DNA of 64,000 bases from Pomacea canaliculata. Lineage: Eukaryota; Mollusca; Gastropoda; Architaenioglossa; Ampullariidae. Within the stretch, counting starts at the first letter, position 1; every line of letters starts with the position of its first letter. The notes under the pieces were generated by a model. It made no database searches and was not told the DNA's origin. It worked only from the letters and a program-made list of their open reading frames with translations. Shown piece after piece: positions 18,588 through 51,500 of the stretch. Where the stretch lies: assembly GCF_003073045.1 (NCBI RefSeq), contig NC_037594.1, positions 26,418,927 to 26,482,926 on the forward strand, in the 5' to 3' direction. The translations under genes were made by a program, and so were the position numbers.

Positions 18588-19075
18588 CTTAAAGGGATTC
18601 TAAAGGCAAAATAAAACTGCTTAGAATGGCATAAAGAGTAGGATACATTTGAATCTCGTCTATTTATATGTGTGTTCATGTGGAAAACGTTGAAGGTTTT
18701 TAGTAGAATGTTGTGTTTAATAAGAGAAATTACACAGGACTCTTTTTGTGCTTCCACGAAGTCTCGTTCTCCGTCACGTGACCCTATGACGTGTGGTTTC
18801 CATAGTGACAACCACGCCTCGAGAATGTGCTGCACCCGATTGCCACGAAAAGTTGGAAAAGATTAAAAATTGTCTTTTCATCAGTTTCCGACAGACAGAG
18901 CCTTACAAGCCTGACACACAGAGTGCGTCATACGATAAAATGACGTCAAATCTTCGCAATGACCCCAGACACTTCCTGTGCGTGTGACGTCACAAGGAGA
19001 CTGACGTCACAATAAGACTCGTCTGCTTGATCATCTCGGGAAGCTATCGTGGTTACTCGGCGGAAGGACACAAAG
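18588..19075. repeat. Dispersed 490-bp repeat, copy 1 (CRE-bearing)
   Basis: The stretch from CTTAAAGGGATTCTAAAGGC to GGCGGAAGGACACAAAG matches 38630-39113, 20 kb away, in the same orientation, with only scattered single-base differences by eye. It contains three palindromic CRE octamers TGACGTCA at 18941-18948, 18985-18992 and 19002-19009. I see no terminal inverted repeat, polymerase III boxes or coding capacity, so the class is unknown. High similarity points to recent spread. Confidence 0.85.
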
Positions 19076-20150
19076 GTCGATTTCACTGGATTTTTTCAAT
19101 GTTTATAAACATCGGCAACCGAAATAGTGCTAATAAGTGGTAATTAAGTGAAAAACCAATCCTTTATTTCTCCTGTATCGCTCTCGTGCTCTGTCATTGT
19201 AACTAAATATATTTTTGAAACGTTAGACGGTCACCAGAGCCTTATCACAAGCCTTGAGTATACCTTTAATTTTGGTGCAAACGCTTCAGTATTCAAAGTT
19301 AGCTAGGGCTACTGTATAAAAAAAATCATGTCAACCCAACATACTTTATTTGAAAAGATGGTTGATGTTTACTTCTACCTGCCACGTGTATGCACCACGT
19401 GATCTCACTGCCTGTACACCCGCTAGATTTGGGAACTTTTTGTTACGCCGCTTGACTGCTTTAATCTGTAATGTCTACTTCTGTAATCATGTCTGTCAGT
19501 TTAATTAGAAAGCTTGTTTGACTGTATTGGCCAGATAATACACCATCATAGTGAGCATGATTCACGTGCTGTATTCAGCAGTTTTACCTGCTGTCTTACT
19601 GCTTTAGAAATTTTGCATATCACCGGAGTTGATCAGTATCGCTCCCTCCTCCACGGTCTGACCCGCAGTCTCACCCGTCAAGATGTCAACATCTTCAGTT
19701 GGCGACGACAGACTTTTCTTGTCCATTCACTGGTCCTGTGTATTATCTTGTCTGTTTGCATCCGTAATTCTTCGAAAATATTTACGACTTGCGTTTAGTA
19801 ATTTTTTTTCTCTTGAATCTCTTAACCTTATATTTTAAAAATAAAACTGATTTTTTTGTGGGGTAGGGGAATGCTAAATGACTAAAAGATTCTTGTCTGT
19901 CTAATAAAATGTTTGTGCTTGAAAATGATGTCTCGGTGAACTGTTATAAAAGGATCTCTTTAGCAACTTAAAAAAATTAGAAAAGTGAATGTTTTGTAAA
20001 AGTGCGGGATTTCTTTCATTCTCGGCCTGACTTATCTGTTGATCAAGTCAAAGATAGGGAAGGACGGGTTCACTTTTGTTAAACAACAATAAAAGGCTTG
20101 TAAACAAGTTTTGTGACTTGTCAACACTCTCCGTTCCGCACCAGTAGCCA
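19076..20150. other. Intergenic stretch, nothing recognised
   Basis: AT-rich sequence with no gene-like open frame. A short motif CACGTGTATGCACCACGTG at 19383-19401 pairs two E-boxes. No other structure was recognised. Confidence 0.4.
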
Positions 20151-20797: not shown

Positions 20798-21759
20798 ATG
20801 GCGGTAAACATGAAGGTGTTGTCAGGAAGTTCCTGCCCTAACCTCGCCATGAAGATGTGCGAGCATCTGGGCCTGGAGCTGAGCCAGGTGGTCACCAAGA
20901 GGTTGCCCAGTGGAGAGTGGAGTGTCGAGCTGTGCGAGTCGGTGCGTGGAATGGATGTGTACGTCGTCCAGACCGGATGTGACGAAGTGAACGACATGCT
21001 GATGGAGCTGCTGATCATGATCGACGCCTGCAAGATGGCCTCGGCAGGTCGCGTCACCGCCGTCGTCCCCTGCTTTCCTTACGCGCGGCAGGACGAGAAG
21101 AAGCGAGAAAACAGGACGACAGTGACGCCAAGCTGGTGGCCAACATGGTGTCCGCGGCCGGAGCTGATCACGTGATCACCATGGACCTCCACGCCCCGCA
21201 GATCCAGGGCTTCTTCGACATCCCCGTGGACTGCCTGACCGCCGAACCTGCCATCCTGCTGTGGATCAGGAGTCAGATCCCGGACTGGCGCCACTGCTGC
21301 CTCGTGGCCCCTGACACTGGAGCTGCCAAGAAGGTGACGTCACTGGCCGACAAGCTGAACGTGGAGTTTGCTCTCCTCCACGAAGGCCGCACTAAGGTCA
21401 ACCAAACGGTCGCCATGATTTTGGTCGGAGATGTGCGAGACCGCGTCGCCATTTTGGTGGACGACGTGGCGGACGCCTGCGGCACGATGTGTCGCGCGGC
21501 AGAGAAATTAGTGGAGGCCGGTGCCCGCCAGGTGCTGGCCGTCTGCACTCATGGATTCTTCTCAGGTCCAGGCGTCGCCCGCGTGAACGACTCCAAGCTG
21601 GAGATGGTGATGGTGACCAACACGCTGCCCCAGGCCATCAACATGGCGCACAGCACCAAGATCAGGACGATCGACGTGTCGGCCATTTTTGCCGAGGCTG
21701 TACGTAGGACTCACAATGGTGAATCTCTCTCTTTCCTCTTCAGTAACGTTCCCCTCTAA
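20798..21759 (+). CDS. PRPS-like ribose-phosphate pyrophosphokinase, intronless, one frame break
   Basis: PRPS makes PRPP from ribose 5-phosphate and ATP for nucleotide synthesis in the cytosol. The frame opening at ATG 20798 ([12 protein letters not shown]) and the frame ending at TAA 21757-21759 (FLFSNVPL) together cover the family from end to end with no intron. The break lies near 21092-21125: [19 protein letters not shown] is in one frame and [20 protein letters not shown] in the next. The PRPP-binding loop [10 protein letters not shown] and RRTHNGES C-terminus are intact. Two active-site regions differ from human PRPS1: the FSNQE segment reads LPSGE, and the catalytic-loop KER (HKER) reads HEGR, losing the lysine. 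Lack of introns suggests a retrocopy. It is PRPS, not the PRPS-associated protein, since the inserted segment of that subfamily is absent. It may be a diverged paralogue, a pseudogene or a gene with an assembly error. Confidence 0.8.
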
Positions 21760-28900: not shown

Positions 28901-30070
28901 TCCACAGAGTAGCCCCTTGACAATGTGTGGGTCCCCTGTAGCTGGTGGTGTAAGCTATGGGGTGGACTGAATGTTTATGTTGATATACGAACTACCCAGC
29001 TAACAAGTGTGTTTTAGTCCAAGTCATTTTTATTTCATTCCCGGCGGGTGACCAGACATCATGAATGGAGGGAGAAGTTTGCCTGCAGCCCACCAGCCTG
29101 CTCTAGCCTTGTTAGCAGCCTGTTGTGTTGATGACATCTCCAGGATCCTGTCTCCAAGATATGGACAGAGGTTCTCTCCACCGATAAATTCCAGATTATG
29201 CCAATAAAATTAATAACCCATGAATGAAATTTATAGTCACTTTATTACTTTTCTTTTCTCGTCAACCTAGCGAAGATTTTTTTCTTGAACCAAATGTGTA
29301 ATTTAGATGATTAGATAATACAGCAAATACAGTTTGGTCATATACAATGTTGCTGCATTGTCCTATACCCGCCGCCAGGTACACCCAGTAGCAGCTCATA
29401 TAGTCAGCAGAAGAAGCCAACATCGATGTTTGTGTTTAGCCTTAAAATTTGCAGGCAAATTGCGGCAAACGTCGGCAAGTGAAGACGTCCATGACAAGGC
29501 CCGGTGTCCCCGCACGCGCACGCACGCACTGGCTGTGCCGAGCCATCTGGGTAATGGCGGTGTCCATCGATTGCTTCGGCAGCAGCCAGGCGTTCATTGG
29601 AGGCTGCACGCGAGCTCGTGTGTTGCCATGGTGATGATATCATCCAGGATCCAGCAACATTATGTTAAGAAGCTGGCCTCACCACCACCGCCGCCGCCGC
29701 CGCCTGCTAGAGGACACTGGTGGCTGTGTCGGTTCCTTTTGTGATACTCGCTTGTCAACAGACGGTGGGGACTATTTTTTTTTTAAAGCCGTTTCTGCTG
29801 TAAATACTGGACTTTGCTGGCACCTGACCGTGTTGTAGCTGATTTTTGTAGTTCCCAGTCTCCACAACAAATCTCGGATTTTTGGTCGAGAATCATGCAG
29901 CTTTCTGCGTCTTCCGTGTGTGGTAACGGGTCTACAGTTCGTTCTCTGCCTCATGTGATGCATTCCTCAACACCCACCACCGGCTTCTGCCTGTCGCTGC
30001 ATCTGGCTGTTTGCTAGAAGGACTAGTAGGCCATTTTCTTTTCATTTCGTCTTTATCTCCGATCACCAGG

Positions 30071-30964
30071 ATGGGCACCGTGTTGTCTTTCTCTCCACGC
30101 CAACGGAAGCCTCTGTGCGAGGACATCAACCTGAACAATTTCACGTACGAACAGCTCAACAATGCCAAAAACATTCCCAATATTCCGCCAAAGGAGAAAA
30201 ACTTCAAGCGCCATTCCATGTTTCTCAGCGTGCTCAGCTGGAAGAAGTTCACCGTCAACCCCAAGAAGAAGGACAAGAACTTGTTAAAGCTTTCAAACTC
30301 TACGATCCTCCACAGCAACAAGTTAGACAACAACTTTAATCTGGAGAATGTCAACTTGAACAAAAACATCCAGAAGTCGGTTTCCTGCTACAACCTGAAA
30401 ACAGGGCAAGAGGAACCCGTGCACACCATTGTGCCGGTGAAGGTGGCGCCAGTGGTGACTAAGAAACTGGTGGACAAGTGCTGCAGTCCTAAGCGGACGG
30501 TGATCCAAGCCTCCACCTCCGAGCTTCTCAAGTGTCTGGGGGAGTACCTGAAGCGCAAGTGTAAAAAACTGCGGCACTTTGAGCCCAGCGACGCCATCTT
30601 GTGGTTACGGTCCGTGGATCGCTCCTTGCTGCTTCAAGGATGGCAGGACATCGCCTTCATCAACCCGGCCAACGTCGTCTTCATCTACCTGCTGGTACGG
30701 GATGTCGTGCCCAGCGAGCTACAGTCCGAGCACGACCTGCAGGCCCAGGTACTCACCTGTCTCTACCTGTCCTACGCCTACATGGGCAACGAGATCAGCT
30801 ACCCGCTCAAGCCTTTCTTGGTGGAAGAGGACAAGGACAAGTTTTGGGATCGGTCCCTGCTCATCGTCGAGCGACTCAGCGCCAGCATGCTTCGCCTCAA
30901 CAAGGACCCCAGCTTTTTTACAGAAATCCTCACCGAACTCAAAGCTTACTCTCCGTGTATATGA
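30071..30964 (+). CDS. CDK5R1: Cyclin-dependent kinase 5 activator p35, single exon, complete
   Basis: p35 binds and activates CDK5, a neuronal kinase acting in migration, axon growth and synaptic function. The 297-residue frame starts at ATG 30071, giving [10 protein letters not shown], the N-myristoylation signal (Gly2) that tethers p35 to membranes. [15 protein letters not shown] at residues 46-60 matches the conserved N-terminal region. The cyclin-box-like activator domain spans about 145-292, with [47 protein letters not shown] and [20 protein letters not shown], close to human p35. The stop is TGA at 30962-30964. The frame remains open for 20 codons upstream, but the MGTVLS start is the family start. 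The coding sequence has no intron, as in vertebrate CDK5R1. No truncation or missing element is visible. Confidence 0.97.
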
Positions 30965-36521: not shown

Positions 36522-36820
36522 CTGCGGTCAACCAGCGCTGATGACACTGTACTACGTCACGTTGGTACACCATTCACACGGTCGCCTGCAGTCAACATCA
36601 GTCAGAGAGAGAATGAGTGACAGTTCGGATTATTCGGACGCTAACGGTCTGCATTTCTCGTACTGGTTCTGAAAAACTCCTATTTTAGTACGAGAAATGC
36701 ATACTTTCACCCTCCGAATAACCCGAACTCTCTCTCTGACTGGTGTTGACTGGTGGCAATATTGTGAATGGTGTACCAACGTGACGTAATATAGTGTTAT
36801 CAGCGCTGGTTGGTCGCATA
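36522..36820. mobile_element. Foldback (long inverted-repeat) MITE
   Basis: The left arm (from TGCGGTCAACCAGCGCTGAT, then CGTTGGTACACCATTCAC, GTCAGAGAGAG, to GCATTTCTCGTAC near 36662) is the imperfect reverse complement of the right arm ending AGCGCTGGTTGGTCGCA. Arms are about 140 bp around a loop of about 25 bp with CTCCTATTTTAG. The corresponding place in the two sister blocks lacks it, so it inserted into block A alone. No coding capacity. Confidence 0.8.
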
Positions 36821-37116
36821 CCTTCAGTCTTCATCCTTACCAACATCATGAACGCACGCACTTAACCTTTGACCAACGTCTTTTAATTTTCGTACCACTG
36901 ACACCATGATTAATTATTCGGTATTCCAGGAAAATGTCATTATTCGATTCTTAATTCTTGTGAGTGCAAATCATGGCACAGAATCACAGGTTACCGAGGC
37001 TGTGACCCATAGAATGACAATATTCTGTAGAATTGTAATTGAAAACTGAGAGACAAGACCTACAACAGCTCTTGTGTCGTAATTTACTGGTGGTGGTCTT
37101 TTCTTTTGCTTCTTCG

Positions 37117-37260
37117 CTAAGCAGAGTTTCTGAGTCGGTTCCAGAACCGACCTAGGTCTTGTCCAGAGCTGCGTCGCTTTCGTCTCCCACCTGGAGAATA
37201 ATAAGATAATGAGAGTAATAAAAGAGTAACAAACACATGGAAACACACACGCGCGCGCAC

Positions 37261-37291
<31 letters not shown>

Positions 37292-37891
37292 TAAAAGTAA
37301 GTACGTAAAAGTCGAGTACTCACGATAGGGAGGAAAGCAGCAGGCATGCGATGGAAGTCGACACAAGCCTGTACGGACCACGCCCATGCACGTGTGACCT
37401 ACAGCTTTACAGATTCCCTTGGCATGGTAACATTTGTCACAAGATACTGGGGAATGAACAAAAAACACACACACTGCTACTAGTAGAAATGACCTTCTTT
37501 GAGGAGAACATTTGCAGGAGAACGAACAGGAACCTAACTCTTAGCTGATTAACCATTTATAATGTTTTGGTATAAACTTTCTTTCATTTAGAAAATAACA
37601 CTTTCTTATATTGTTTTATTTTCTATATGGTATATTATCAATAATAACACAGAACAGTTTCGTTTAGTATTTTAGTATTTGTTTTGTTGCTTATACGGTA
37701 GCTACTACTGTCTGATATGCTTTAACCACGTCTAGGTTTTTATTATTTTTTGTGTAGATTGATAGTCGAGGAAGACTTAAAAATATATCAGCTGCTGGCA
37801 GCGAGGCTGGCAATCAGTGTTGCGTGTCACCTGTTTCCATGCAGACGAACGTGATCAACACCAAGACCGTGACACAGGCCGCCACACCCAT
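37117..37891 (-). CDS. Novel secreted cysteine-rich peptide, copy A (3 coding exons)
   Basis: I do not recognise this gene. Exons on the minus strand: 37891-37831, 37446-37324, 37190-37117, joined by phase-1 introns of 384 and 133 bases with consensus ends (CCCCAG, CTCCAG acceptors; GTGACA, GTGAGT donors). The 85-residue product begins MGVAACVTVLVLITFVCMET, a classical hydrophobic signal peptide. Then comes a core with cysteines at 23, 26, 33, 40, 49, 56 and 57 (C-x2-C-x6-C-x6-C-x8-C-x6-CC), including MGVVRTGLC. A strongly basic GRRKRR at 63-68 is followed by SSGQDLGRFWNR and the stop. RRKRR looks like a prohormone-convertase site, which could separate core and tail. The last six cysteines are spaced roughly as in beta-defensins, but similarity beyond spacing is not evident. 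Copy A has a single cysteine exon, unlike copies B and C. Confidence 0.75.
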
Positions 37892-38130
37892 CACGTGTGG
37901 TACAGGACACCCTGCCCTCTGTCTACTGGCCACAACAGTCGATTTAGCTTTCCAACTTTCAAGCACACTAAGAAAATAGAAAATATTTCTGTCATAAAGG
38001 AGATCACTCCCTACCTATTCCCCACACTAACGGAAAACACATGAGCAGAGTGAGGTCAGGTGAACGCGAAGTCACGCGCCATCGTCAACGCTGAACACGG
38101 GACAAGGTATGAGAAAGAGAAGGTTACGAA

Positions 38131-38629
38131 AAAATGTAAGTTTGGTACCTGTATAATGTTGAGGGGTCCTTCAGATGTGCCTTTGTTCTTTAGTTAGACA
38201 CCAGAAGTCACAGGCACTAGAGGTGTCTTCGCTCCTTCCGCTGCAGGTGTAAACCTCTTCTCTGAAACCAGACGGAAACACGGCGAGGAATAGCACACCT
38301 GAAGCAGATGGTCACGTTCACCACCCCATCGCTCACAAAAGTTGTTCCTTTTCCTGTAGATTAATAATAATATAAAGAAACCCAAACGAGTGTGCCTCAA
38401 GGCTCGCTGTGGAGGCTGTCTCAAGGGGAGGATCATTTATCTTGTCTCACGAGCACCAGCCGAGCTTCCGCTCTGTATTTATGTTTTCCGTCAGCTTCTA
38501 TGGTTCATTGTTTGATGTGGCTCTCTCAGAACAACAGCGGCTGTGTATAATGTGAGAGAAAAAAACTTACAAAGTACTTCATATAAGCCAGAAAATATTT
38601 AACCCATTTAACTGCAGGCGTATATTGCT
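38131..38629. other. Spacer, nothing recognised
   Basis: About 500 bases of intergenic DNA between block A and the dispersed repeat; no exon-like or repeat-like structure was recognised. Confidence 0.4.
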
Positions 38630-39113
38630 TAAAGGGATTGTAAAGGCAAAATAAAACTGCATAGAATGGCTTAAAGAGTAGGATAAATGTAAATCTCGTC
38701 TATTTATATGTGTGTTCAGGTGGAAAACGTTGAAGGTTTTTAGTAGAATGTTGTGTTTAATAAGAGAAATTACACGGCACTCTTTTTTTGCTTCCACGAA
38801 GTCTCGTTCTCCGTCACGTGACCCTATGACGTGTGATTTCCATAGTGACAACCATGCCTCGAGAACGTGCTGCACCCGATTGCCACGAAAAGATGAAAAA
38901 GATTCAAAATTGTCTTTTCATCAGTTTCCGACAGACAGAGCCTTACAAGCCTGACACACAGAGTGTGTCATACGATAAAATGACGTCAAATCTTCGCAAT
39001 GACCTCAGACACTTCCTGGGCGTGTGACGTCACAAGGAGACTGATGTCACAAGGAGACTCGTCTGCTCGAGCATCTCGGGAAGATATCGTGGTTACTCGG
39101 CGGAAGGACACAA
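38630..39113. repeat. Dispersed 490-bp repeat, copy 2
   Basis: Matches 18588-19075 in the same orientation. Two of the three TGACGTCA octamers are kept (38981-38988, 39025-39032); the third reads TGATGTCA. Its right end abuts the start of duplication unit 1, so it may mark a recombination boundary. Confidence 0.85.
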
Positions 39114-40282
39114 GGGTGAAACGAAGTGGCTTGTGTATGAGATTTGTAGGGAATGAGTGATTGTGCAGTGTTGTGAGTGTGGTAGTGAAGAATAGATTGA
39201 CTCGCTAGATATCTGGATTAGGGTTAAGGAGTATAGTTAGTGTTAACAGGACGACCTAGATAACTAGCCAAGATAGGGAACTGGATCATTTGCAAACCTG
39301 CCTGTTCTTTGTATTTCCTTTGTCATTTAGTAATTTGTAAAATCCTCTCGATTATTAATGACTTTCTTTAATAAACTAAATTGCTTTGAGTTGTTTATTG
39401 GGGTGATGCATGCTGGGGGCTCAACGAGTTAATTAAAAGTGTTAATAAGCAATTTAGTATGGCTGCATGCGGTAAATGTCGACGTGATTTGGTGGAGGTA
39501 TCGAGAGTGTGATAGGCCGGAGCGACGGAAATCATAACCTCTACCATCTCCACGTGCTCCTACCCCAGAGGTTCACTACAAGGGTGAAACTCCTACACAT
39601 CGGATGCTTTTATCAATCTGCAAAACAAAAAAACAAAACAAAACAAAAAACAAAAAAAAAAAAACAAAAAACAAAAAACCCCCAACAACAACAAACAAAC
39701 AAAAACCGCAATTCATTCAGATTGGTCTTGAAGCAAATGAACAGATAATGCTAGATTCTGAAAGCTGATTCGCGCGCCTTGCAGCGACACACAGAGAATT
39801 CAGTTTGCTTCAAGTCGTGCGACAAGGTCATAGGTTACATTGGCAGCCAAGCTTAGGATGGGTGACGATACTGTTCGAGACGAGACATACATTACATAGC
39901 AAACCAGCACAAAACTGTGGCCCCCACAGGCGAATTCCTCGCTCCCACCCACTGACACGCATCCGAACACACCTTCAGTCTGCATGCTTACCAACATCAT
40001 GAATGCACCCACTTAACCTTTGACCAACATCTTTTAATTTTCGTAGCACAAACACCTAAATTAATTATTCAGTATTCCAGGAAAGGGTCATTACTCAATT
40101 CTTAATTCTTGTGAGTGTAAATCACAGGTTACCGAGGCTGTGACCCATAGAATGATAATATTCTGTAGAACTGTAATTGAAAACTGAGAGGCAAGACCTA
40201 CAACAGCTCTTGTCGTTATTTATTGGTGTTGGTCTTTTCTTTTGCTTCTTCGATAAGCAGAGCTTCTGACTCGGGTCCAGAA

Positions 40283-40374
40283 TTAACCTAGTTCTTGTCC
40301 AGAGCTGCGTCGCTTTTTTCCACCATCTGGCGAATAATGAGATAATAAGAGTAAAACGAGTAACAAAAACATGA

Positions 40375-40405
<31 letters not shown>

Positions 40406-41403
40406 TTAGTACGTAAAAGTCGAGTACTGACCATCGTGATTAAAGCAGCAGACATGCGAGTGATGTCGACAATAGTCTGCATTGTACACGCCCGTGCACG
40501 TGGGACCTGGAGGTTAACAGTTTCCCTTCACTCGATAACATTTGTCACAAGATACTGGGGAATAAACACACACACACACACACGTACGTATGTGAAAGTC
40601 GAGTACTCACGCCTGGGAGGAAAGCAGCAGACATGCGATGGATGATGACACAAGCCTGTACGGACCACGCCCATGCACGAGTGACCTGGAGGTTTACAGA
40701 TTCCCCTCCCTCTCTGACATTGGTTACAAGAAACTGGGGAATGAACAAAAAACATACACACCACTACTAGTAGAAATGACCTTCTTTGAGGAGAACATTT
40801 GCAGAAGAACTAACAGGAACCTAACTCTTAGCTGATTAACCGTTTTTACTGTCTTGGTTCAAACTTTCTCCCGCTAAGAAAATAAGTTTCTTATATTGTT
40901 TTATTTTCTATATGGTATATTATCAATATTGACACAAAACAGTTTCGTTTAGTATTTTAGTATTTGTTTCTCTGCATTACACTCTAAAATTTAAAATAAC
41001 TTTAAGTCGTTTATTATTGTACTTTGATTTTATATTCACTGTACCATATGCTAGCGTGGATATTTCCCCAATGTGATTTATGTAACCTTTCTCTGAACTC
41101 CAGATATTATCAACAAGCAGCTTTTTCGGTATTTTGCTATTGTGTTCTCTATCATATATTGCATGTATCAACATTAAGAAGTTTTGTTGCTATAGCTTCT
41201 ACGGTAGCTACTACTGTCTGATATGTTTTAACCATGTTTAGGTTTTTATTATTTTTTGTGTAGATTGATAGTCGAGGAAGACTTAAAAAAATACATATAT
41301 CAGCTGCTGGCAGCGAGGCTGGCAATCAGTGTTGCGTGTCACCTGTTTCCATGCAGACGAACGTGATCAACACCAAGACCGTGACACAGGCCGCCACACC
41401 CAT
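40283..41403 (-). CDS. Novel secreted cysteine-rich peptide, copy B
   Basis: Same architecture as copy A. Exons: 41403-41343 (signal peptide, identical in protein to copy A), 40733-40611 (cysteine core), 40326-40283 (tail, stop TAA). All introns are phase 1, giving 75 residues. The core keeps all seven cysteines (SCNQCQRGRGICKPPGHSC, MGVVRTGLC, HVCC) and the tail reads HGGKKRRSSGQELG, ten residues shorter than in A and C. A second cysteine-exon copy lies within the intron before the tail exon (40554-40432). An AATAAA signal lies soon after the stop on the minus strand. Function is unknown. Confidence 0.75.
40432..40554 (-). pseudogene. Second cysteine exon (2b) of copy B, probably inactive
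   Basis: This exon-like segment is 123 bases like the used cysteine exon, with CCCCAG acceptor and a GTCAGT donor, and would splice in phase 1 at both ends. It encodes SCDKCYRVKGNC, PTCTG, DYC and HSHVCC, so the cysteine spacing is recognisable, but it is not open throughout, a state shared with the copy in unit 2. It may be a relic of an alternative-exon pair. Confidence 0.6.
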
Positions 41404-41639
41404 CACTTGTGGTACAGGACACCCTGCCCTCTGTCAACTGGCCACAACAGTCGATTGAGCTTTCCAAGTTTCAAGCACACTAAGAGAATAGAAAACATTT
41501 CTGTCATAAAGGCAGTCACCTGCCCACACCAAGGGAAAACACATGAGCAGAGCGAGGTCAGGTGAACGCGAATTCACGCGCCATCGTCAACGCTGAACAC
41601 GGGACAAGGTATGAGAAAGAGAAGATCAAGAAAAGGTAA

Positions 41640-42890
41640 AACTAATTTAACCGTATCACAAAGTCAGATGTCAAATGTGTACAGTCTAAACTCTAACATA
41701 CACAAACTAAACCAAATAACAGGAGATTGCATCAACTCACTAGCGACAGACCACACTATAGTCCACCTAGTTTCTGGAAGTCTATCTGCACTAAGCCAGG
41801 TGAGTCTGCTTTTCAAGTGCCATGTCCTAGACACGGATAATCAATCACGTTCTGTCCTTACTGCCACTCTATGAATACACACTGAATAAATAAATAAACG
41901 AAAGGACTTCTATTCTTGGGTTGACACGCTAGAGACCTCTTGAAAAACCGGTACACAAATTAAATAAGACTTTGGAAAGGGAAACGAAACAAAAAATTGC
42001 GTATATTAATCTTCTTCAAAAGGTTGAAAGTCACTAGTAATACTTTATAGATGGCAACTTGTCGTGCGCTGCCACCCTTAGCATGCATACCTTAATTGAC
42101 TTCACCCTCGCACGCACGCGCGGAGCTCTTCAGTCACGACAACGAGCGATGGGGCCAGCAGCACGGGGTACGTACGTGACTGTCACGTGAAGGCGAGGCG
42201 ATGGACCGTCGTGCTGTGGGCTGCAAATTAAATCGAATACATGGCTGCCTTCCCTCAGCACCTAATCATGTCGGCCTCACATTAGTCCTGAAACACGACT
42301 GCATCCTGGCTCAGCAAACTTAATTACAATCCAGATAGGTCTGCCACTAAGGGTTCTTAGTTTCTAGAGAGGATAAAGGATTTGAGAGCTCATCCATTAT
42401 TATTATAGACCTCTGAAACAAATGAAAGGAAGACACGTGAACTACAAACATGATCAGCTGATTAGTTATGAAATCTTACTTTTCAACATCATACAAACTC
42501 AACTGGTCGAAGAGAAAGAATTAGGAGCGCCTGTCGACAGAACAACCTCTCGAGAACGTGGCGGTTTATTTGGGAACCCTTCAATATTGTTTTTGGTTCA
42601 GTTGTAGATAAATTATTATTTTGTAGCACACAGTTTACGCAATAGTGATTTAAAACATCATCTTTCAACCGATTAGACAACAAGAGAACGTGATTGCCAT
42701 GGTAACTAATTCCCGACGCTGATTGTTGACAAGATACAATGACGTAAACATGACGTGGAGCTGTTGAGGCGGTACGGGAAGGGAAGAAAACTAATGGCGT
42801 TAAATTGAATGAGACATTATCTAACCAATGCATTGGCATCATATTTAGAGGATAATAATTTGCATGCGTACATAATTATAACTGCTGCAG
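41640..42890. other. Unit-1 spacer including 1.1 kb absent from unit 2
   Basis: Up to about 41756 the sequence matches unit 2 (46717-46838); from there to about 42895 there is no counterpart in unit 2. No transposon ends, coding exon or RNA gene was recognised in the extra segment, so insertion here and deletion in unit 2 are both possible. Confidence 0.5.
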
Positions 42891-43770
42891 GCCAGCGCTT
42901 CAGTTCCCGAGGAAACACGAGACACTACGTGTAGGGGAGTGGAGGCTGCGTCTGCCTATATAGAAAGGTGCGGTGTTTGTATTTTTGTACATTTCGAGGT
43001 TTTTGTATGTTGAATTTTTTATGTACAATTTCCAAAAGATATGAATGATCGAGTGATTTTGTTCTCGTTCGTAACTGTCAATAGGCGCAGTCTGCGGGCT
43101 GGGAGATGGGCCATGAAGTGAAAGGACGTCAGTGTTTGAGTCTGGCTAATGCCACGGACTAATCGGCCTGGCAGATGCCATGAAGAGTTTTATGTGTTTT
43201 GTTTTGTAAATTTTTTTAGTTTGTACTGGTATCCTGGAGTATATGGCCCAGGAAGACAACGTCTGACCCCAAGAAGCAGTGTTTGATATGTCAGGAGGTG
43301 AGGTCGCTCGATCGTCTCCAGAGACGTGTCATTCAGTGCATATAACGTCTGTCCCCTAGTAGAGACGTCAGCTGTGTTTCGTGTGTGTAATAATTGTTTT
43401 TATGATTTAAGATAAGTTGTGAGTGTCGTATATATATAGATGGATGGAGCATTAGTCACCAGAGACAGCTGATACAGTGAAAGCAGTGTTGTGCCGAACT
43501 TTACACTTTATTATTCTTAATTTGATCATCAAGAAAAGGTATTTTCTATTAGGACTGATTTTAGAATTAGATAGTAATAAAGTGAATTTTATAGCAAGAG
43601 AGAGAAAATAATAAGAAATTTCCCTATAAGCAGCATAAAGTCGGCACCGCCTGTAACCTGTTCGCATACTTTTCGGGACAAATAAAAGACGACCGCCTGT
43701 GTATGATCGACATCCTATGCCCGGGTCGAAGTCAACCGTTCCTGTGTGAATTTTGTAATGATTATTTCAG

Positions 43771-43881
43771 TTCCTTTGGCCACCATCATGTTTCACAGTA
43801 TATATATTAACCAAGGATTTTGCTAAGGTGAAAGCCATTAAAAAGTTGGGGTTTTGTTTAACACGCCAGTCTGTCACTAAA
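43771..43881 (+). pseudogene. Relic of isopentenyl phosphate kinase exon 2
   Basis: The segment TCCTTTGGCCACCATCATG to CTGTCACTAAA, bounded by ATTTCAG and GTGAGTAAATT, matches IPK exon 2 at 49708-49810 and its flanking intron. It is 111 bases against 103 and does not keep the reading frame. No matching exon 1 lies upstream in this unit. It is the by-product of the segmental duplication. Confidence 0.88.
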
Positions 43882-45162
43882 GTGAGTAAATTATTTTGTG
43901 GTCATTTCACTTATCACAAGACTGTCTTCATCTATAAGGCAGTTTCAGTTCAACCTTGGAGCCCTCCATCCAGCGAGAAACCATTGTACGACATCGCAAG
44001 TGACAGTTGTGTGTGTCCAGCAGAGGCTACACATCACACGTGAAGGCTTGTGTGAAGTGAAGTGGCATGTGTATGAGATTTGTAGGGAATGAGTGATTGT
44101 GCAGTGTTGTGAGTGTGGTAGTGAAGAATAGATTGACTCACTAGATATCTGGATTAGGGTTAAGGAGTATAGTAGTGTTAACGGGACAACCTAGATAACT
44201 AGCCAAGATAGAGAACTGGATCACTTGCACACCTGCCTGTTCTTTGTATTTCCTTTATCATTTAGTAATTTGTATAATTCTCTCGATGATTAATCACTTT
44301 CTTTAATAAACTAAATTGTTTTGAGTTGTTTATTGGGGTGATGCATGCTGGGGGCTCAACGAGTTAAATAAAAGTGTGAATAAGCAATTTAGTATGGCTG
44401 CATGCGGTAAATGTCGACGGGATTTGGTGGAGGTATCGAGAGTGTGATAGGCCGGAGGGACGGAAATCATAACCTCTACCATCTCCACGTGCTCCTACCC
44501 CAGAGTTTCATAACAAGTGTGAAACTCCTACACATCGGATGCTTTTATCAATCTGTAAAACGAACAAACAACAACAACAACAACAACAACAACAAAACAA
44601 AAACAAACAAACAAAAACCGCAAGCCATTCAGGTTGGTCTTGAAGCAAAGGAACAGATGATGCTACATGTATATTGTGAAAGCTGATTCGACACAGAGAG
44701 AATTCAGTTTGCTTCATATCGCTCGACAAGGTCATAGGTTACATTGGCAGCCAAGCTTAGGATGGGTGACGATACTGTTCGAGACGAGACATACATTACA
44801 TAGCAAACCAGCGGCTAAAAACCTCCCCCACAGGCGAGCTCCTCCCTCCCACCCACAGACACGCATCCGAACACACCTTCAGTCTGCATGCTTACCAACA
44901 TCATGAATGCACCCACTTAACCTTTGACCAACATCTTTTAATTTTCGTAGCACTGACACCTAAATTATATAATTATTCAGTACTCCAGGAAAGGGTCATT
45001 ATTCGATTCTTAATTCTTGTGAGTGTAAATCACGGCTTACCGAGGCTGTGATCCATAGAAGGACAATATTCTGTAGAACTGTAATTAAAAACTGAGAGAC
45101 AAGACCTACAACAGCTCTTGTGTCGTAATTTATTGATGGTGGTCTTTTCTTTTGCTTCTTCG

Positions 45163-45553
45163 CTAAGCAGAGCTTCTGACTCGGGTCCAGAACTGACCTA
45201 GGTCTTGTCCAGAGCTGCGTCGCTTTCTTGCCTCATCTGGAGAATAATAAGAGTAATAAACGAGTAGCAAGCACATGAACACACATACACTCACACACAC
45301 TCACACTCACACACACTCACACTCACTCACACACAAACGTTAGTACGTAAAAGTCGAGTACTCACGATCGGAATTAAAGCAGCAGACATGCGAGTGATGT
45401 CGACAATACTCTGCATTGTACACGACCGTGCACGTGGGACCTAGAGGTTAACAGTTTCCCTTCACTCGATAACATTTGTCACAAGATACTGGGGAATTAA
45501 CAACACACGCACACGCACGCGCACACACACGCACGCACACACACACACACGCA

Positions 45554-45633
<80 letters not shown>

Positions 45634-46463
45634 TACGTACGTAAAAGTCGAGTACTCACGCCTGAGAGGCAAGCAGCAGACATGCGATGAATCTTGACAC
45701 AAGCCTGTACGGACCATGCCCATGCACGAGTGACCTGGAGGTCTACAGATTCCCTTCCCTCTCTGACATTGGTTACAAGAAACTGAGGAATAAACAAAAA
45801 ACATACACACCACTACTTGTAGAAATAACCTTCTTTGAGGAGAACATTTGCAGGAGAACTAACAGGAACCTAACTCTTAGCTGATTAACCTTTTATGATG
45901 TTTTGGTTTACACTTTCTTCCGTTAAGAAAATAACAGTTTCTTATATTGTTTTCTATATGGTACATTATCAATATTAACACAGAATAGTTTCGTTTAGTA
46001 TTTTAGTATTTGTTTCTCTGCATTACACTCTAAAACTTAAAATAACTTTAAGTCGTTTATTATAGTACTTTGATTTTATATTTACTGTACCATATGCTAG
46101 CGTGGATATTTGCTCCAATGTGATTTATGTAACCTTTCTCTGAACTCCAGATATTATTAGTATTATCAACAAGCAGCTTTTTTCGGTATTTTGCTATTGT
46201 GTTCTCTATCATATATTACATATACTGTATCAACATTAAGAAGTTTTGTTGCTATAGCTTCTACGGTAGCTACTACTGTCTGATATGTTTTAACCACGTT
46301 CAGGTTTTTATTATTTTTTGTGTAGATTGACAGTCGAGGAAGACTTAAATATATATATATCAGCTGCTGGCAGCGAGGCTGGCAATCAGTGTTGCGTGTC
46401 ACCTGTTTCCATGCAGACGAGCGTGATCAACACCAAGACCGTGACACAGGCCGCCACACCCAT
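45163..46463 (-). CDS. Novel secreted cysteine-rich peptide, copy C
   Basis: Exons: 46463-46403 (signal peptide MGVAACVTVLVLITLVCMET), 45782-45660 (cysteine core), 45236-45163 (tail, stop TAG), all phase-1 introns, 85 residues. The core keeps every cysteine (SCNQCQRGKGICRPPGHSC, MGMVRTGLC, HVCC). The tail reads HEARKRRSSGQDLGQFWTR and onward, parallel to copy A. The 423-base second intron contains a long CA tract and exon copy 2b. AATAAA (minus strand, 45134-45129) lies 29 bases after the stop. Against copy B the core exon differs at eight bases, all changing an amino acid. Function is unknown; a secreted immune or signalling peptide is inferred. Confidence 0.75.
45366..45488 (-). pseudogene. 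Second cysteine exon (2b) of copy C, probably inactive
   Basis: Counterpart of 40432-40554: 123 bases, CCCCAG acceptor, GTGAGT donor, cysteine spacing visible, not open throughout. The common state of both 2b copies shows that it was inactive before units 1 and 2 separated. Confidence 0.6.
45504..45630. repeat. (CA)n / (CG)(CA) microsatellite
   Basis: A long alternating purine-pyrimidine CA tract with CG interruptions, in intron 2 of cysteine-rich gene C. Shorter homologous tracts sit at 37247-37290 and 40375-40401 in copies A and B, so the tract predates the duplications and has expanded in copy C. Confidence 0.92.
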
Positions 46464-46939
46464 CACTTGTGGTACAGGACACCCTGCCCTCTGTCAACTG
46501 GCCACAACAGTCGATTGAGCTTTCCAACTTTCAAGACAACAAAGAGAAAAGAAAACATTTCTGTCATAAAGAGATCATACCCTACCTATACGCAGTCACC
46601 TGTCCACACCAACGGAAACACATGAGCAGAGCGAGGTTAGGTGAACGCGAATTCACGCGCCATCGTCAACGCTGAACACGGGACAAGGTATGAGAAAGAG
46701 AAGATCAAGAAAAGGTAAAACTAATTTAACCGTATCACAAAGTCAGATGTCAGATGTGTACAGTCTAAACTCTAACATACACAAACTAAACTAAAATAAC
46801 AGGAGATTGCATCAACTCACTAGCGACAGACCACACTAGCTTCACTTCCCGAGGAGACACAGCGATCGAGTGCCGAGACACTATATATATATACACACGT
46901 GTGGGGGAGTGGAGGCTGCGCCTGCCTGTATAGAAAGTA

Positions 46940-47679
46940 CAGTCAAATCTCCCTACTATGCCACCCCGCTACTATGCCACTCTCGGTATTATGCCACTTT
47001 TGCTCGGTCCCGACTATAAATTCAATGTAAAAAAAAATTTACTATGCCACCCCAGACTCTCGCTACTATGCCACTTTTTTGTGACTATTAAAAGACACAA
47101 GTTGTGAAATTCCACGCAGTGCTCGATTACTATACTGTATGGTAGTGTGGGACATTGCAGTTAGGTGGATGGAACCTAGCACGCACACAGGGAGGGTGGA
47201 GGCTGGCAATGGTGGTGGTCGCTGGCCGGGTGACAGCCACGTGACAGAGGGAAGGTGTGAGGGGGTCGACTAGCGACAGGATGCAGGTGCGCGGATGTGG
47301 TTGGGAGGGGTGGAGGATGAAGAGGTGAGGGGGAGAATGAGAGGAGACAGCTAGCGAAGCCGAAAATTCTTGAGAGCTTTGGACCAGACCTGGGCAAAGG
47401 CCTCCTATCTCTGACCGGCCCGCCCACCCGCCCGCCAGTATATATACTATACATACAGTATTGGGTAAAACTGAGTTAACTATATTAGTCCGGCCCTCTA
47501 AAACCATCCCAATTTCTCATGCGGCCGCTTGGGAAAATTAATTGCCCACCCCTGCTTTGGACTGACGGGTAACTTGAACAAATAAAGCCGTTTTTACGAA
47601 CCCTCTCTACTATGCCACTCTCGCTACTTTGCCACTTTTGCTCGGTCCCGGTAGGTGGCATAGTAGGGAGATTTGACTG
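46940..47679. mobile_element. TA-flanked non-autonomous DNA transposon, 740 bp
   Basis: Terminal inverted repeats CAGTCAAATCTCCCTACTAT continue with GCCAC at both ends; TA flanks each side (46938-46939, 47680-47681). Near each end the phrase ACTATGCCAC is repeated several times as subterminal repeats. The GC-richer middle lacks a transposase. The homologous site in unit 1 (about 42966) is empty, so insertion followed the duplication. The CAGT ends and TA target fit the pogo/Tigger or related IS630-Tc1 group. Confidence 0.9.
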
Positions 47680-48544
47680 TATACGTGCGGTGCTTGTATT
47701 TTTGTACATTTCGAGGTTTTTGTATGTTGATTTTTTTTATGCATTCTTTTCAAAAGATATGAATGATCGAGTGATTTTGTTCTCGTTCGTAACTGTCAGC
47801 AGGCGCAGTCTGCAGGGCTGGGAGATGGGCCATGAAGTGAAAGGACGTCAGTGTTTGAGTCTGGCTAATGCCACGGACTAATGGGCCTGGCAGATGCCAT
47901 GAAAAGTGTTTGTGTTGTTTTGTTTTGTAAATTAGTTTAGTTTATACTGGTATCCTGTAGTATATGGCCCAGGAAGACAACGTCTGACCCCAAGAGGCAG
48001 CGTTTGATATGTCAGGAGGTGAGGTCGCTCGATCGTCCCCAGAGACAGTGTCATTCAGTGTATGTATAACGTACGCCTGTCCCAAAGTGGAGACGTCAGA
48101 ATTGTGTTTTGTGTGTGTAACTGTTTTTATGATTTAAGATAAGTTGTGAGTGTGGAAGATATATAGAGATTTATGTAACATTAGTCCCCAGAGACAGTTG
48201 ATACAGTGAAAGCAGTGTTGTGCCGAACTTAACACTTTATTATTCTTAATTTGATCATCAAATAAAGGAACTTTCTCTCAGGACTGATTTTTACAATTAG
48301 ATATTAATCAAGTGAATTTTATAGCAAGAGAGAGAGAGAGAGAAAATAATAAATTTCCCTCTTAGCAGCCTATAAGTCGGCACCGCCTGTAACCTGTTCA
48401 CATACTTTTCGGGACAAATAAAAGACGACCGCCTGTGTATGATCGACCTCCTCTGCCCGGGTCGAAGTCACCCTCTCCTGTCGGAAGGTGAAGGTGACAA
48501 AAGCTTTAAATTTTGAGCTCTTGGCTGCAGAATTTGTGTTAACT

Positions 48545-51500
48545 ATGGAAAGCGATCGGAAATCAACAACCTTAGATTTGATTGTGAAATTTGGCGGTGC
48601 TGCAATTACGGACAAGTCTTCCTTAGAAACACTGAAGCCGGATCAGCTGGACTACGGGGCTAGCATCATTGAAGAATGTTACAAGCTGGGACAGACTGTG
48701 GTCGTCGTACACGGGGCAGGGTATGGCGTGTTGGGGGTGTGCGCGCGAGTGGCGTGTTCATTGCGTGCCCTGTCTGGTCTTCAAGAAGAAAATAACGATT
48801 CACAACCTTCCAAGACAACAACACACATGTGCACACACTAATAATTACACAGTTGTAAAGTCAGTAGAGAAAACTCTTAACATAGGAAGCCATGTTTTTT
48901 CAGGCGCAGCAACTCTGGATGAGTGACGAAAGTTGATGGAAGATCGAGATTTTCTCTGTCACCGCTAGATTGTCATCAAAGATAATAAATATCACTAAAA
49001 CAAAATGTTCTCTTTAACGTGAGAGGTCAGGGCATCGCATAGGAATCGAAGATTGAAAGCGGTTTCATCTGAGCTATCACACTTTTAATGCACACAACAC
49101 TGTCCAGACTCTAGAGATAGTAACGACCACATAGCAGGGCTGAGATATATGTGTTGACATCTAGTGTCCTCTGTTAAGTTGACTATAAACATGATCAGCA
49201 CATTTTGAGAAATTTGTGCATTTGATAATGAAGAGTCCTGAACAACAAAGTTCCCACTGCGATGCAGATTTACACAAAAATGCATTTGATAGCATTGTAA
49301 AGTATAAATATATTTCCTCATCCTTAAGGAAGTGTGATATATTTAATTTTTTACAGGCCTCTCAAAATCCATGTTAGACTAGTCCATTAAAGACTGCCAC
49401 ATGCTTCCAAGATTTCTACCATTTCTAGGTATCCCTCTAGCCTTAGTTGTTGACTATGGGTGCATGCACACACTCTTTCTTGAAGCTTTTCATAGATAAC
49501 CCTTGTGTGGTGAAAGCGAAGGTGCAAAAACCATTTAAATACCCTATTCACCTACAGAATGATGGATCACAGATCTCCAACTATCCACATGGTGATTTGA
49601 GCGTCTTAGCTGTCTATATATGTATGTGTGTAGATACATTTAATTATGCAAGCATGTTCTTCTCTGCAGGCATCTATTTTATCTTAATTTTGTAATGATT
49701 ATTTCAGCTCCTTTGGCCACCATCATGCTTCAAAGTATAATATTAACCAAGGATTTTTCCAAGGTGAAAGCCATTTGGGTTTTTGTTTAACACGCCAGTC
49801 TGTCACTAAAGTGAGTAAATTATTTTGTGGTCATTTCGCTTATCGCAAGACTGTCTCCATTTATAAGGCAGTTTCAGTTCAACCTTGGAGTCATACTTTT
49901 GTTTTTCTGCTCCAAGGAACACCAGCTAAAAGTGTTTGAGGCTAGGGCATTTTACAATGCAGCTCCTGTGTTGCAAAACCTAATTCTATTGAAGCATGCT
50001 GAGTCTTCATCTGCTTGCTGAAGATTCAGCTGATTGTTAGCTGAAGAGTCCAGCTCAACCTTTCTCTCCTGATCCTGCTTCCTCCCGCCATGTTTGTTCT
50101 GTTGTTTATCCAGATTTTCCATATACAGGATAAGCATGTTATATATTATTATTGGGTGGTGTCAATGGTCTGATAAAAGCATAATACTTGATTTTTTTCT
50201 ACTTGTGCAGCTTAATAAACACATAGTTGACAGCCTGATTTCTAGGAATGTACCTGCTGTTGCTTGTTCGGTAAGTATGTTTCCCCAGACCTGATTCTTT
50301 TAAGTATTTAGCAAAGAAAACTTTTAAAGTATATATTTTTTTTTTGGACATATCTTTGGATGAATACTTGTTGAAAATCATTTTGACTGTGTGATGCCAT
50401 ATGCTGGTCTGGGAAATATATGATAAATGTTTTTGAGTCCTAAAGCTGTGTGCCTTTGGAATAAACTAGTTTATGTGGTTCATGGTTTCCAAACATTTAT
50501 GTGGAGGGAATGCTTGAGATATTGTGTCTTTTAAACTTTTAAATTTAATCTGAATATCCTAGTCTGGTAGTCATTCACCACTGTTCATCTTGAGAGATCG
50601 TGGCATAGCACTGTCAAAATGATATGGTGTTGAAATTATTATTAGGCTCACCCCCAAACTTTCAACATAGCAACAATTACTTATTCACTTACTAACATAA
50701 ATTTGAAATACTTTTTGTCATGCATCAAGTAGCGTCTGCATTACCCATATTCAGGCTGCATTTGTCAATATCAAGATTATTATCTAATGCACCTAACTGT
50801 ACTGAGATCTGGTTTCTTTTCATTTCTATATCAGCCATTCCCAACATGGCAGACAGATAAGAAAGCTGTTGTAGCATGGCCAAAAGAGGTAATCCAAAAT
50901 GTACTCACTTCAAGATTAGTTCCCGTTTTTCATGGAGACTGTGTGCTGGATGCTGCTCAGGGTTGCTGTATCCTCAGTGGAGATTTAATAATCAAGGTTC
51001 ATATCAAGTTTTAGTTACTTTTTGTGTTTGAAGTGTATGTATTAGGAGTGTAAATAGCAAGTTTTGTCACTAAATCAACTGAAGGAGAGCATTCTTGTAC
51101 TTGTGTCTGCATTTTCTTTTGATTTTGATGAAACACTATGCAGATCCATAATCCAACTGATGCCACATAGATTTTATGGTGATTCAAATCTGATTCTGGC
51201 CGCCACATAGTGTTCCTTACAGCTGCATATGCATATGACCTTACATATTTATAAGACCAGAGAATATAAAAATACAGTTCAGCTTTTTAACCACAAGGCC
51301 TAGTTTATTGATAAATTGATGAGACTGGAAGCTAAACATTTTCTTTTTGTCTTTCCAGACACTTTGTGAGAATTTTAATGTGAAAAGAGTGGTCTTTCTT
51401 ACTGATGTTTATGGAGTGTATGATAGACCACCTTGTAGTCAAGGCAAGTATTTCAAAATAACTGTAAAATATTTGACCTCGTCAAGACTTTGCAGTATTA

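Follow-up and report, generated by a model that had tools for sequence, protein, structure and literature searches.

Excerpts of PMC7203481 describe a phase-1 intron 5' of the cysteine region as a mark common to beta-defensin and big defensin genes, report big defensin genes with a phase-1 intron in the apple snail Pomacea canaliculata, and list two bivalves, Ruditapes and Dreissena, that carry short beta-defensin-like genes, arranged in tandem in Dreissena. According to an excerpt of PMC3182236, big defensins hold their cysteines while other sites vary. Antimicrobial peptides of apple snails are nearly unknown; the excerpted 2022 review PMC9178244 knew of one single antimicrobial-peptide report for a Pomacea species. 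Here, we describe three predicted minus-strand genes, A, B, and C, in a 64,000-nucleotide stretch of P. canaliculata DNA (NC_037594.1, our contig C5, positions 26418927–26482926). This whole stretch is hereafter the window, and all feature coordinates are window positions (table 1). With a probability of about 0.62, these are three tandem genes for secreted beta-defensin-like host-defence peptides. In the precursor, exon 1 would supply the signal peptide, exon 2 a cysteine core of the beta-defensin type, and exon 3 a basic tail that contains a multibasic site for cleavage.

The gene anatomy proposed by an earlier, sequence-only reading of this DNA was confirmed: three minus-strand genes of three exons, with both introns in phase 1 and exons joining in frame in all three. 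The predicted products are of 85 (A), 75 (B), and 85 (C) residues, gene B being shorter owing to an early TAA in its tail exon. Exon 1 contributes 61 coding bases, 20 codons and the first base of the next; exon 2, 123 bases long in the three genes, ends in the same phase, and exon 3 encodes the basic tail and the stop. The splice donors are GTGACA for exon 1 and GTGAGTACT for exon 2, and the acceptors finish in CAG. A polyadenylation-type hexamer lies 29, 59, and 29 bases past the stop of A (AGTAAA), B (AATAAA), and C (AATAAA), respectively. The cysteine pattern of the 123-base exon given in the sequence-only reading, C-x2-C-x6-C-x6-C-x8-C-x6-CC, is exact in the three genes, and in each the phase-1 intron sits two codons 5' of the first cysteine, the position excerpted from PMC7203481 for defensin genes. 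Cysteines 2–7 (C-x6-C-x6-C-x8-C-x6-CC in each gene) follow the six-cysteine order closing in CC; the corresponding loops of hBD-2 are x6, x4, x9, and x6. The approximate beta-defensin spacing noticed earlier in the last six cysteines was the right lead. Among six frames of 264,000 bases (the window and 200-kb flanks), a loosened seven-cysteine pattern and a six-cysteine pattern recurred nowhere outside these three exons, which places the pattern above chance. About 180–200 bases 5' of the three start codons, a nine-codon upstream frame, MAR(E/D)FAFT-stop, begins at 38082, 41584, and 46663 on the minus strand and is near-identical in all copies.

The term "triplicate" used previously holds for the genes and not for the cysteine exons, of which there are five. 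Genes B and C each carry a second copy, exon 2b, that had been missed, with a TAA directly after cysteine 3. Because this stop is common to both, the 2b exons either died before or at the B/C duplication or exchanged sequence. The 2b donor is changed in B (GTCAGT) and intact in C (GTGAGT). These exons are possibly the trace of alternative exons.

Fold models were obtained for the cores of A and C, with mean predicted local distance difference test (pLDDT) values of 79.2 and 78.8. Both have three strands (A, E11-16, E24-26, and E34-37; C, E12-14, E23-26, and E35-38), preceded in C by an N-terminal helix (H3-8). By prediction, the two copies have the three-stranded sheet characteristic of beta-defensins and trans-defensins, in which an N-terminal helix may or may not be present. 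Among the rows listed, entries of the beta-defensin fold make up 6 of 6 (A) and 12 of 12 (C) with VIA-align, and 6 of 8 (A) and 12 of 16 (C) by our count with Foldseek, the latter at E values of at least 1.0. The structures listed for copy A include the canonical big defensins 6qbk and 6qbl. The VIA-align rows of the two models also include crotamine, platypus defensin-like peptides, Hact-SCRiP1, and the tick carboxypeptidase inhibitor; we take the last two to have the beta-defensin fold.

Amino-acid change in the core is accelerated around a constant cysteine frame. Among the five exon copies (three intact and two 2b), 28 of 41 residue columns vary and none of the seven cysteine columns does (hypergeometric P = 7.6e-5); the cysteine codons are constant in all five while 47 of 123 bases vary. 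When only the three intact copies are compared, 18 of 41 columns vary, none of them a cysteine (P = 0.011). Exon 2 differs at 22/123 bases between A and B and at 26/123 between A and C, exon 1 at 0/61 and 1/61, and exon 3 at 13/74 and 9/74. The noncoding surroundings changed less than exon 2. Intron 1 differs at 26 of 382 (A–B) and 27 of 379 (A–C) aligned bases, with 229 and 246 gap columns, respectively (Fisher P = 6e-4 and 6e-5). The 220 bases 5' of the ATG differ by 7.1% and 8.6%, and the 200 bases past exon 3 by 6.5% and 6.9% (P = 0.004 to 4e-4 for the flanks). In all ten pairs of the five exon copies, nonsynonymous differences (pN) exceed synonymous ones (pS). A codon model gave omega values of 4.4 and 3.9 for the five copies and of 4.7 and 4.9 for the three intact ones (likelihood-ratio P versus omega 1: 0.002 and 0.004, and 0.016 and 0.016), estimates that rest on 40–41 codons of paralogues that may exchange sequence and, in the five-copy set, include two dead exons with one codon column omitted.

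Two observations weigh against a faster change of exon 2 than of its surroundings. The 150 intron bases adjoining exon 2 differ by 10–11%, which weakens the exon 2/intron contrast (P = 0.016 for A–C and 0.11 for A–B by this local control). Exon 2 shows no excess between B and C by any of four yardsticks (P = 0.37 to 1.0). For the intact copies, pN/pS tests of single pairs are weak (P = 0.20, 0.036, and 0.13). Recombination among exon copies may also contribute to the apparent speed. We rejected the idea that exon 2 of A merely seems fast because it derives from an older exon lineage: its pS of 0.09–0.11 is barely above the intron rate, for a pN of 0.20–0.25. This pattern of substitutions, in which the leader is nearly fixed and the cysteine frame fixed while the remainder varies, is best accounted for by diversifying selection on a translated, secreted peptide.

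The genes would be transcribed and their products processed in two steps. The leader is hydrophobic, compatible with the secretion claimed earlier, and by a simple −3/−1 rule the signal peptide would be removed after TVS (before C) or after VSC (before D). Seven cysteines remain after the leader, or six if the cut falls after VSC. The latter cut would give a mature core with exactly six cysteines; otherwise, the seventh would be free to pair or to dimerise. The basic runs of the exon 3 tail, RGRRKRR (A), HGGKKRR (B), and HEARKRR (C), include a furin consensus in A (RRKRR) and C (RKRR), whereas KKRR in B lacks the full consensus. This suggests a furin-type cleavage site, best in A and C, behind which a furin-like protease would cut. 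Trimming could yield an amidated end in A and B, where the basic residues come after a glycine. Up to and including the basic site, the core has a net charge of +10 (A), +9 (B), and +7 (C). Beyond this site, the tail has 17 residues in A and C and 7 in B; it could serve as a second peptide or be a propeptide that is discarded. The cationic core would fold into a three-stranded sheet held by three disulfides and act on microbes, most simply through binding to the membrane or to wall precursors. Peptides of this kind usually work by binding to membranes or cell walls.

The immune role put forward in the sequence-only reading may be right, being compatible with the accelerated core change and the beta-defensin-like models; nothing specific turned up for the signalling role proposed with it. 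A different function on the same scaffold is the alternative that survives best, although we regard it as unlikely: secreted, fast-evolving peptides with a reproductive (egg fluid or mating secretion), deterrent, or toxin-like job. Accelerated change of the core is equally typical of such proteins, and crotamine, the platypus peptides, Hact-SCRiP1, and the tick inhibitor are nonimmune relatives in fold. However, nothing indicates a gland or a target, and the cationic charge and defensin-type gene design suit defence at least equally well.

Searches at the sequence level bear on family membership. Pfam returned no family at E <= 10 for full copy A or for any of the three cores, which are thus outside the curated beta-defensin profile, and the core profile matched no PDB sequence. 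Four weak single-sequence rows in the PDB (best E 0.02, a viral capsid peptide) were rejected as chance, the three alignments shown having no common cysteine frame. Among 5.8 billion proteins searched with copy A and with the three-copy alignment, there was no match; distant relatives would escape this search because it requires three 5-residue words in common. As gastropods and the CDK5 activator of the window are present in that database, the peptide seems to be unlisted there at about 47–149 residues. Against hBD-2 and BNBD-12, the core profile reaches 30% identity over 33 columns, a score equalled by 13 of 150 full shuffles and 36 of 150 cysteine-held ones; for three big defensins, the counts are 5 and 11 of 150. 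By shuffling of these small profiles, the ties of the core to beta-defensins and big defensins are not significant, and the profiles have little power because those of beta-defensins and big defensins score lower against each other. A hidden hydrophobic domain was sought only through the longest open stretch of intron 1 (40, 70, and 78 codons in A, B, and C) and one tblastn; a Tachypleus big defensin gave no convincing tblastn match in the window. No paper on this peptide family was found in the open-licence literature. The description as an undescribed family stands insofar as no sequence family or database protein matched, but predicted fold, cysteine order, and intron position place it beside the beta- and big defensins. 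We use "beta-defensin-like" and avoid "a beta-defensin" because no Pfam profile matches, because the mature peptide may have six or seven cysteines where beta-defensins have exactly six, and because their disulfides C1-C5, C2-C4, and C3-C6 are putative here.

These weak ties are also what a cysteine-rich secreted peptide of unrelated fold and origin (knottin-like, one half of a Ly6-type domain, or novel in fold) would give, its resemblance to beta-defensins being due to chance. Its seven cysteines, the Foldseek E values, and the presence of knottins among the rows listed agree with such a peptide. We consider this improbable, since the models of two copies list beta-defensin-fold structures in the proportions given above; knottins were rejected on few rows and low scores. 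Ly6/uPAR domains start with C-x2-C-x6-C-x5/6-C, close with CC-x4-C-N, and have phase-1 exon borders. The genes described here share the start and the borders, whereas the closing motif and the long second half are absent, no cysteine following the final CC in any of the three genes. No three-finger entry is among the structure rows listed, and Ly6 was rejected on the missing closing motif. A decaying cluster of recent pseudogenes or genes no longer expressed, to which the stop in both exons 2b, the changed donor in B, and the shortened B tail could point, is very improbable. Both A and C have uninterrupted reading frames, splice sites, and polyadenylation-type signals. At the intron rate, about 4 changes would be expected in the signal exon, which has 0 (A–B) and 1 (A–C; P = 0.036 and 0.15). 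Of 20,000 versions of exon 2 with 26 random substitutions, 0.4% keep an open frame and every cysteine. The genes are probably real, apparently unannotated, fast-evolving, and beta-defensin-like.

Genome-wide, the family was found solely in this window among the matches listed (assembly of 440,159,624 bases in 24 contigs), with three intact cysteine exons and two 2b. The DNA search (40 of 144 candidates scored, 80 matches listed) gave seven long matches, all inside the three window copies, the others falling on the GT-repeat part of the query. As a protein query, core C found the five window exons only, and core A found eight places, these five and three weak ones (E 0.27, 1.4, and 7.1), all judged to be chance. 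The E 7.1 place is a tandem repeat. The E 0.27 place (L034, C1:28136012-28136098, minus strand), with the first two cysteines absent and stops close on both sides, is taken as chance or a remnant; it keeps the spacing of the last five cysteines, C-x6-C-x8-C-x6-CC, exactly.

Self-comparison of the window showed that the genes sit in a tandem segmental duplication. Besides the peptide gene, units B and C share sequence that matches an amino-acid-kinase-type gene near 48443 in its 5' flank and its start. In unit B, 42968-43745 and 43749-43961 correspond to 47685-48481 and 49686-49890, a 90–92% copy of this 5' flank that extends into the first open frame of the kinase-type gene and is likely a gene fragment left behind by the duplication. 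A 490-base repeat, 94.7% identical between 18588-19077 and 38628-39117, is perhaps a mobile element. Adjoining gene A downstream, 296 bases (36523-36818) resemble a small inverted-repeat element, with a 75% match to their reverse complement. Conserved plus-strand neighbours are frames for a phosphoribosyl-pyrophosphate-synthetase-associated protein (20983-21756) and a CDK5 activator (29927-30961), the latter closest to the snails Nucella lapillus (84%), Batillaria attramentaria (82%), and Babylonia areolata (80%) among named records in the best 120 of 1661.

Table 1. Predicted features of the three peptide genes and their duplicated units (window positions).
Feature	Position	Strand	Remark
Gene A exon 1, coding part: signal peptide	37831..37891	-	0/61 base changes to B, 1 to C
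Gene A exon 2: seven-cysteine core, 123 bases	37324..37446	-	Fold model made
Gene A exon 3, coding part: basic tail and stop	37117..37190	-	
Gene A AGTAAA, possible polyadenylation signal	37083..37088	-	
Gene B exon 1, coding part: signal peptide	41343..41403	-	
Gene B exon 2a: seven-cysteine core	40611..40733	-	
Gene B exon 2b: all seven cysteine positions retained, cysteine 3 followed by an in-frame TAA, donor changed to GTCAGT	40432..40554	-	
Gene B exon 3, coding part: basic tail shortened by TAA	40283..40326	-	
Gene B AATAAA, possible polyadenylation signal	40219..40224	-	
Gene C exon 1, coding part: signal peptide	46403..46463	-	
Gene C exon 2a: seven-cysteine core	45660..45782	-	Fold model made
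Gene C exon 2b: all seven cysteine positions retained, cysteine 3 followed by an in-frame TAA, intact donor GTGAGT	45366..45488	-	
Gene C exon 3, coding part: basic tail and stop	45163..45236	-	
Gene C AATAAA, possible polyadenylation signal	45129..45134	-	
Duplicated unit with gene A, limits approximate	36817..38132	.	Self-comparison
Duplicated unit with gene B, limits approximate, discontinuous	39116..43961	.	Self-comparison
Duplicated unit with gene C and 5' part of amino-acid-kinase-type gene, limits approximate, discontinuous	44052..49890	.	Self-comparison

More speculatively, these genes could represent a gastropod defensin lineage with a gene design of its own, a proposal that we hold tentatively. 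A symmetric phase-1 core exon could be duplicated or swapped within the gene (2a/2b), and a separate exon would provide a second, basic peptide released by a protease. Diversity would come from duplicated genes and exons and from strong positive selection; the dead 2b exons would be what is left of an exon-swapping stage. If the host-defence reading is true, an invasive snail has a testable defence system, and short beta-defensin-like genes of molluscs extend beyond bivalves, which bears on whether big defensins gave rise to beta-defensins repeatedly. The fast change of the core hints at an immune arms race in animals for which few such peptides are known.

Like canonical big defensins (Tachypleus, Crassostrea), the P. 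canaliculata genes encode a C-terminal cysteine domain in its own exon, with constant cysteines among varying residues (PMC3182236, excerpt). They differ in spacing (x6, x6, x8, x6 versus x6, x3, x13, x4) and in having no hydrophobic N-terminal domain, as only two residues separate the leader exon from the first cysteine in each gene. The basic run follows the core, whereas big defensins have a dibasic site in the prodomain before the mature peptide. With vertebrate beta-defensins (hBD-2, AvBD3, and AvBD11), they share a signal exon followed by a phase-1 cysteine exon, as excerpted for those genes, a similar spacing, and a similar predicted fold. They differ from them in the extra cysteine, a tail exon of their own, the length of loop 2 (6 residues, not 4) and of loop 3 (8, not 9), and the lack of a Pfam or PDB-sequence match. 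Compared with the noncanonical big defensins of Ruditapes and Dreissena (PMC7203481, excerpts), they add a third coding exon with a multibasic tail and have seven cysteines, and their similarity to big defensins is not significant. Like these, they are short mollusc genes encoding a beta-defensin-type cysteine domain without a hydrophobic domain, in tandem copies as in Dreissena and with a phase-1 intron ahead of the cysteine domain as in Ruditapes.

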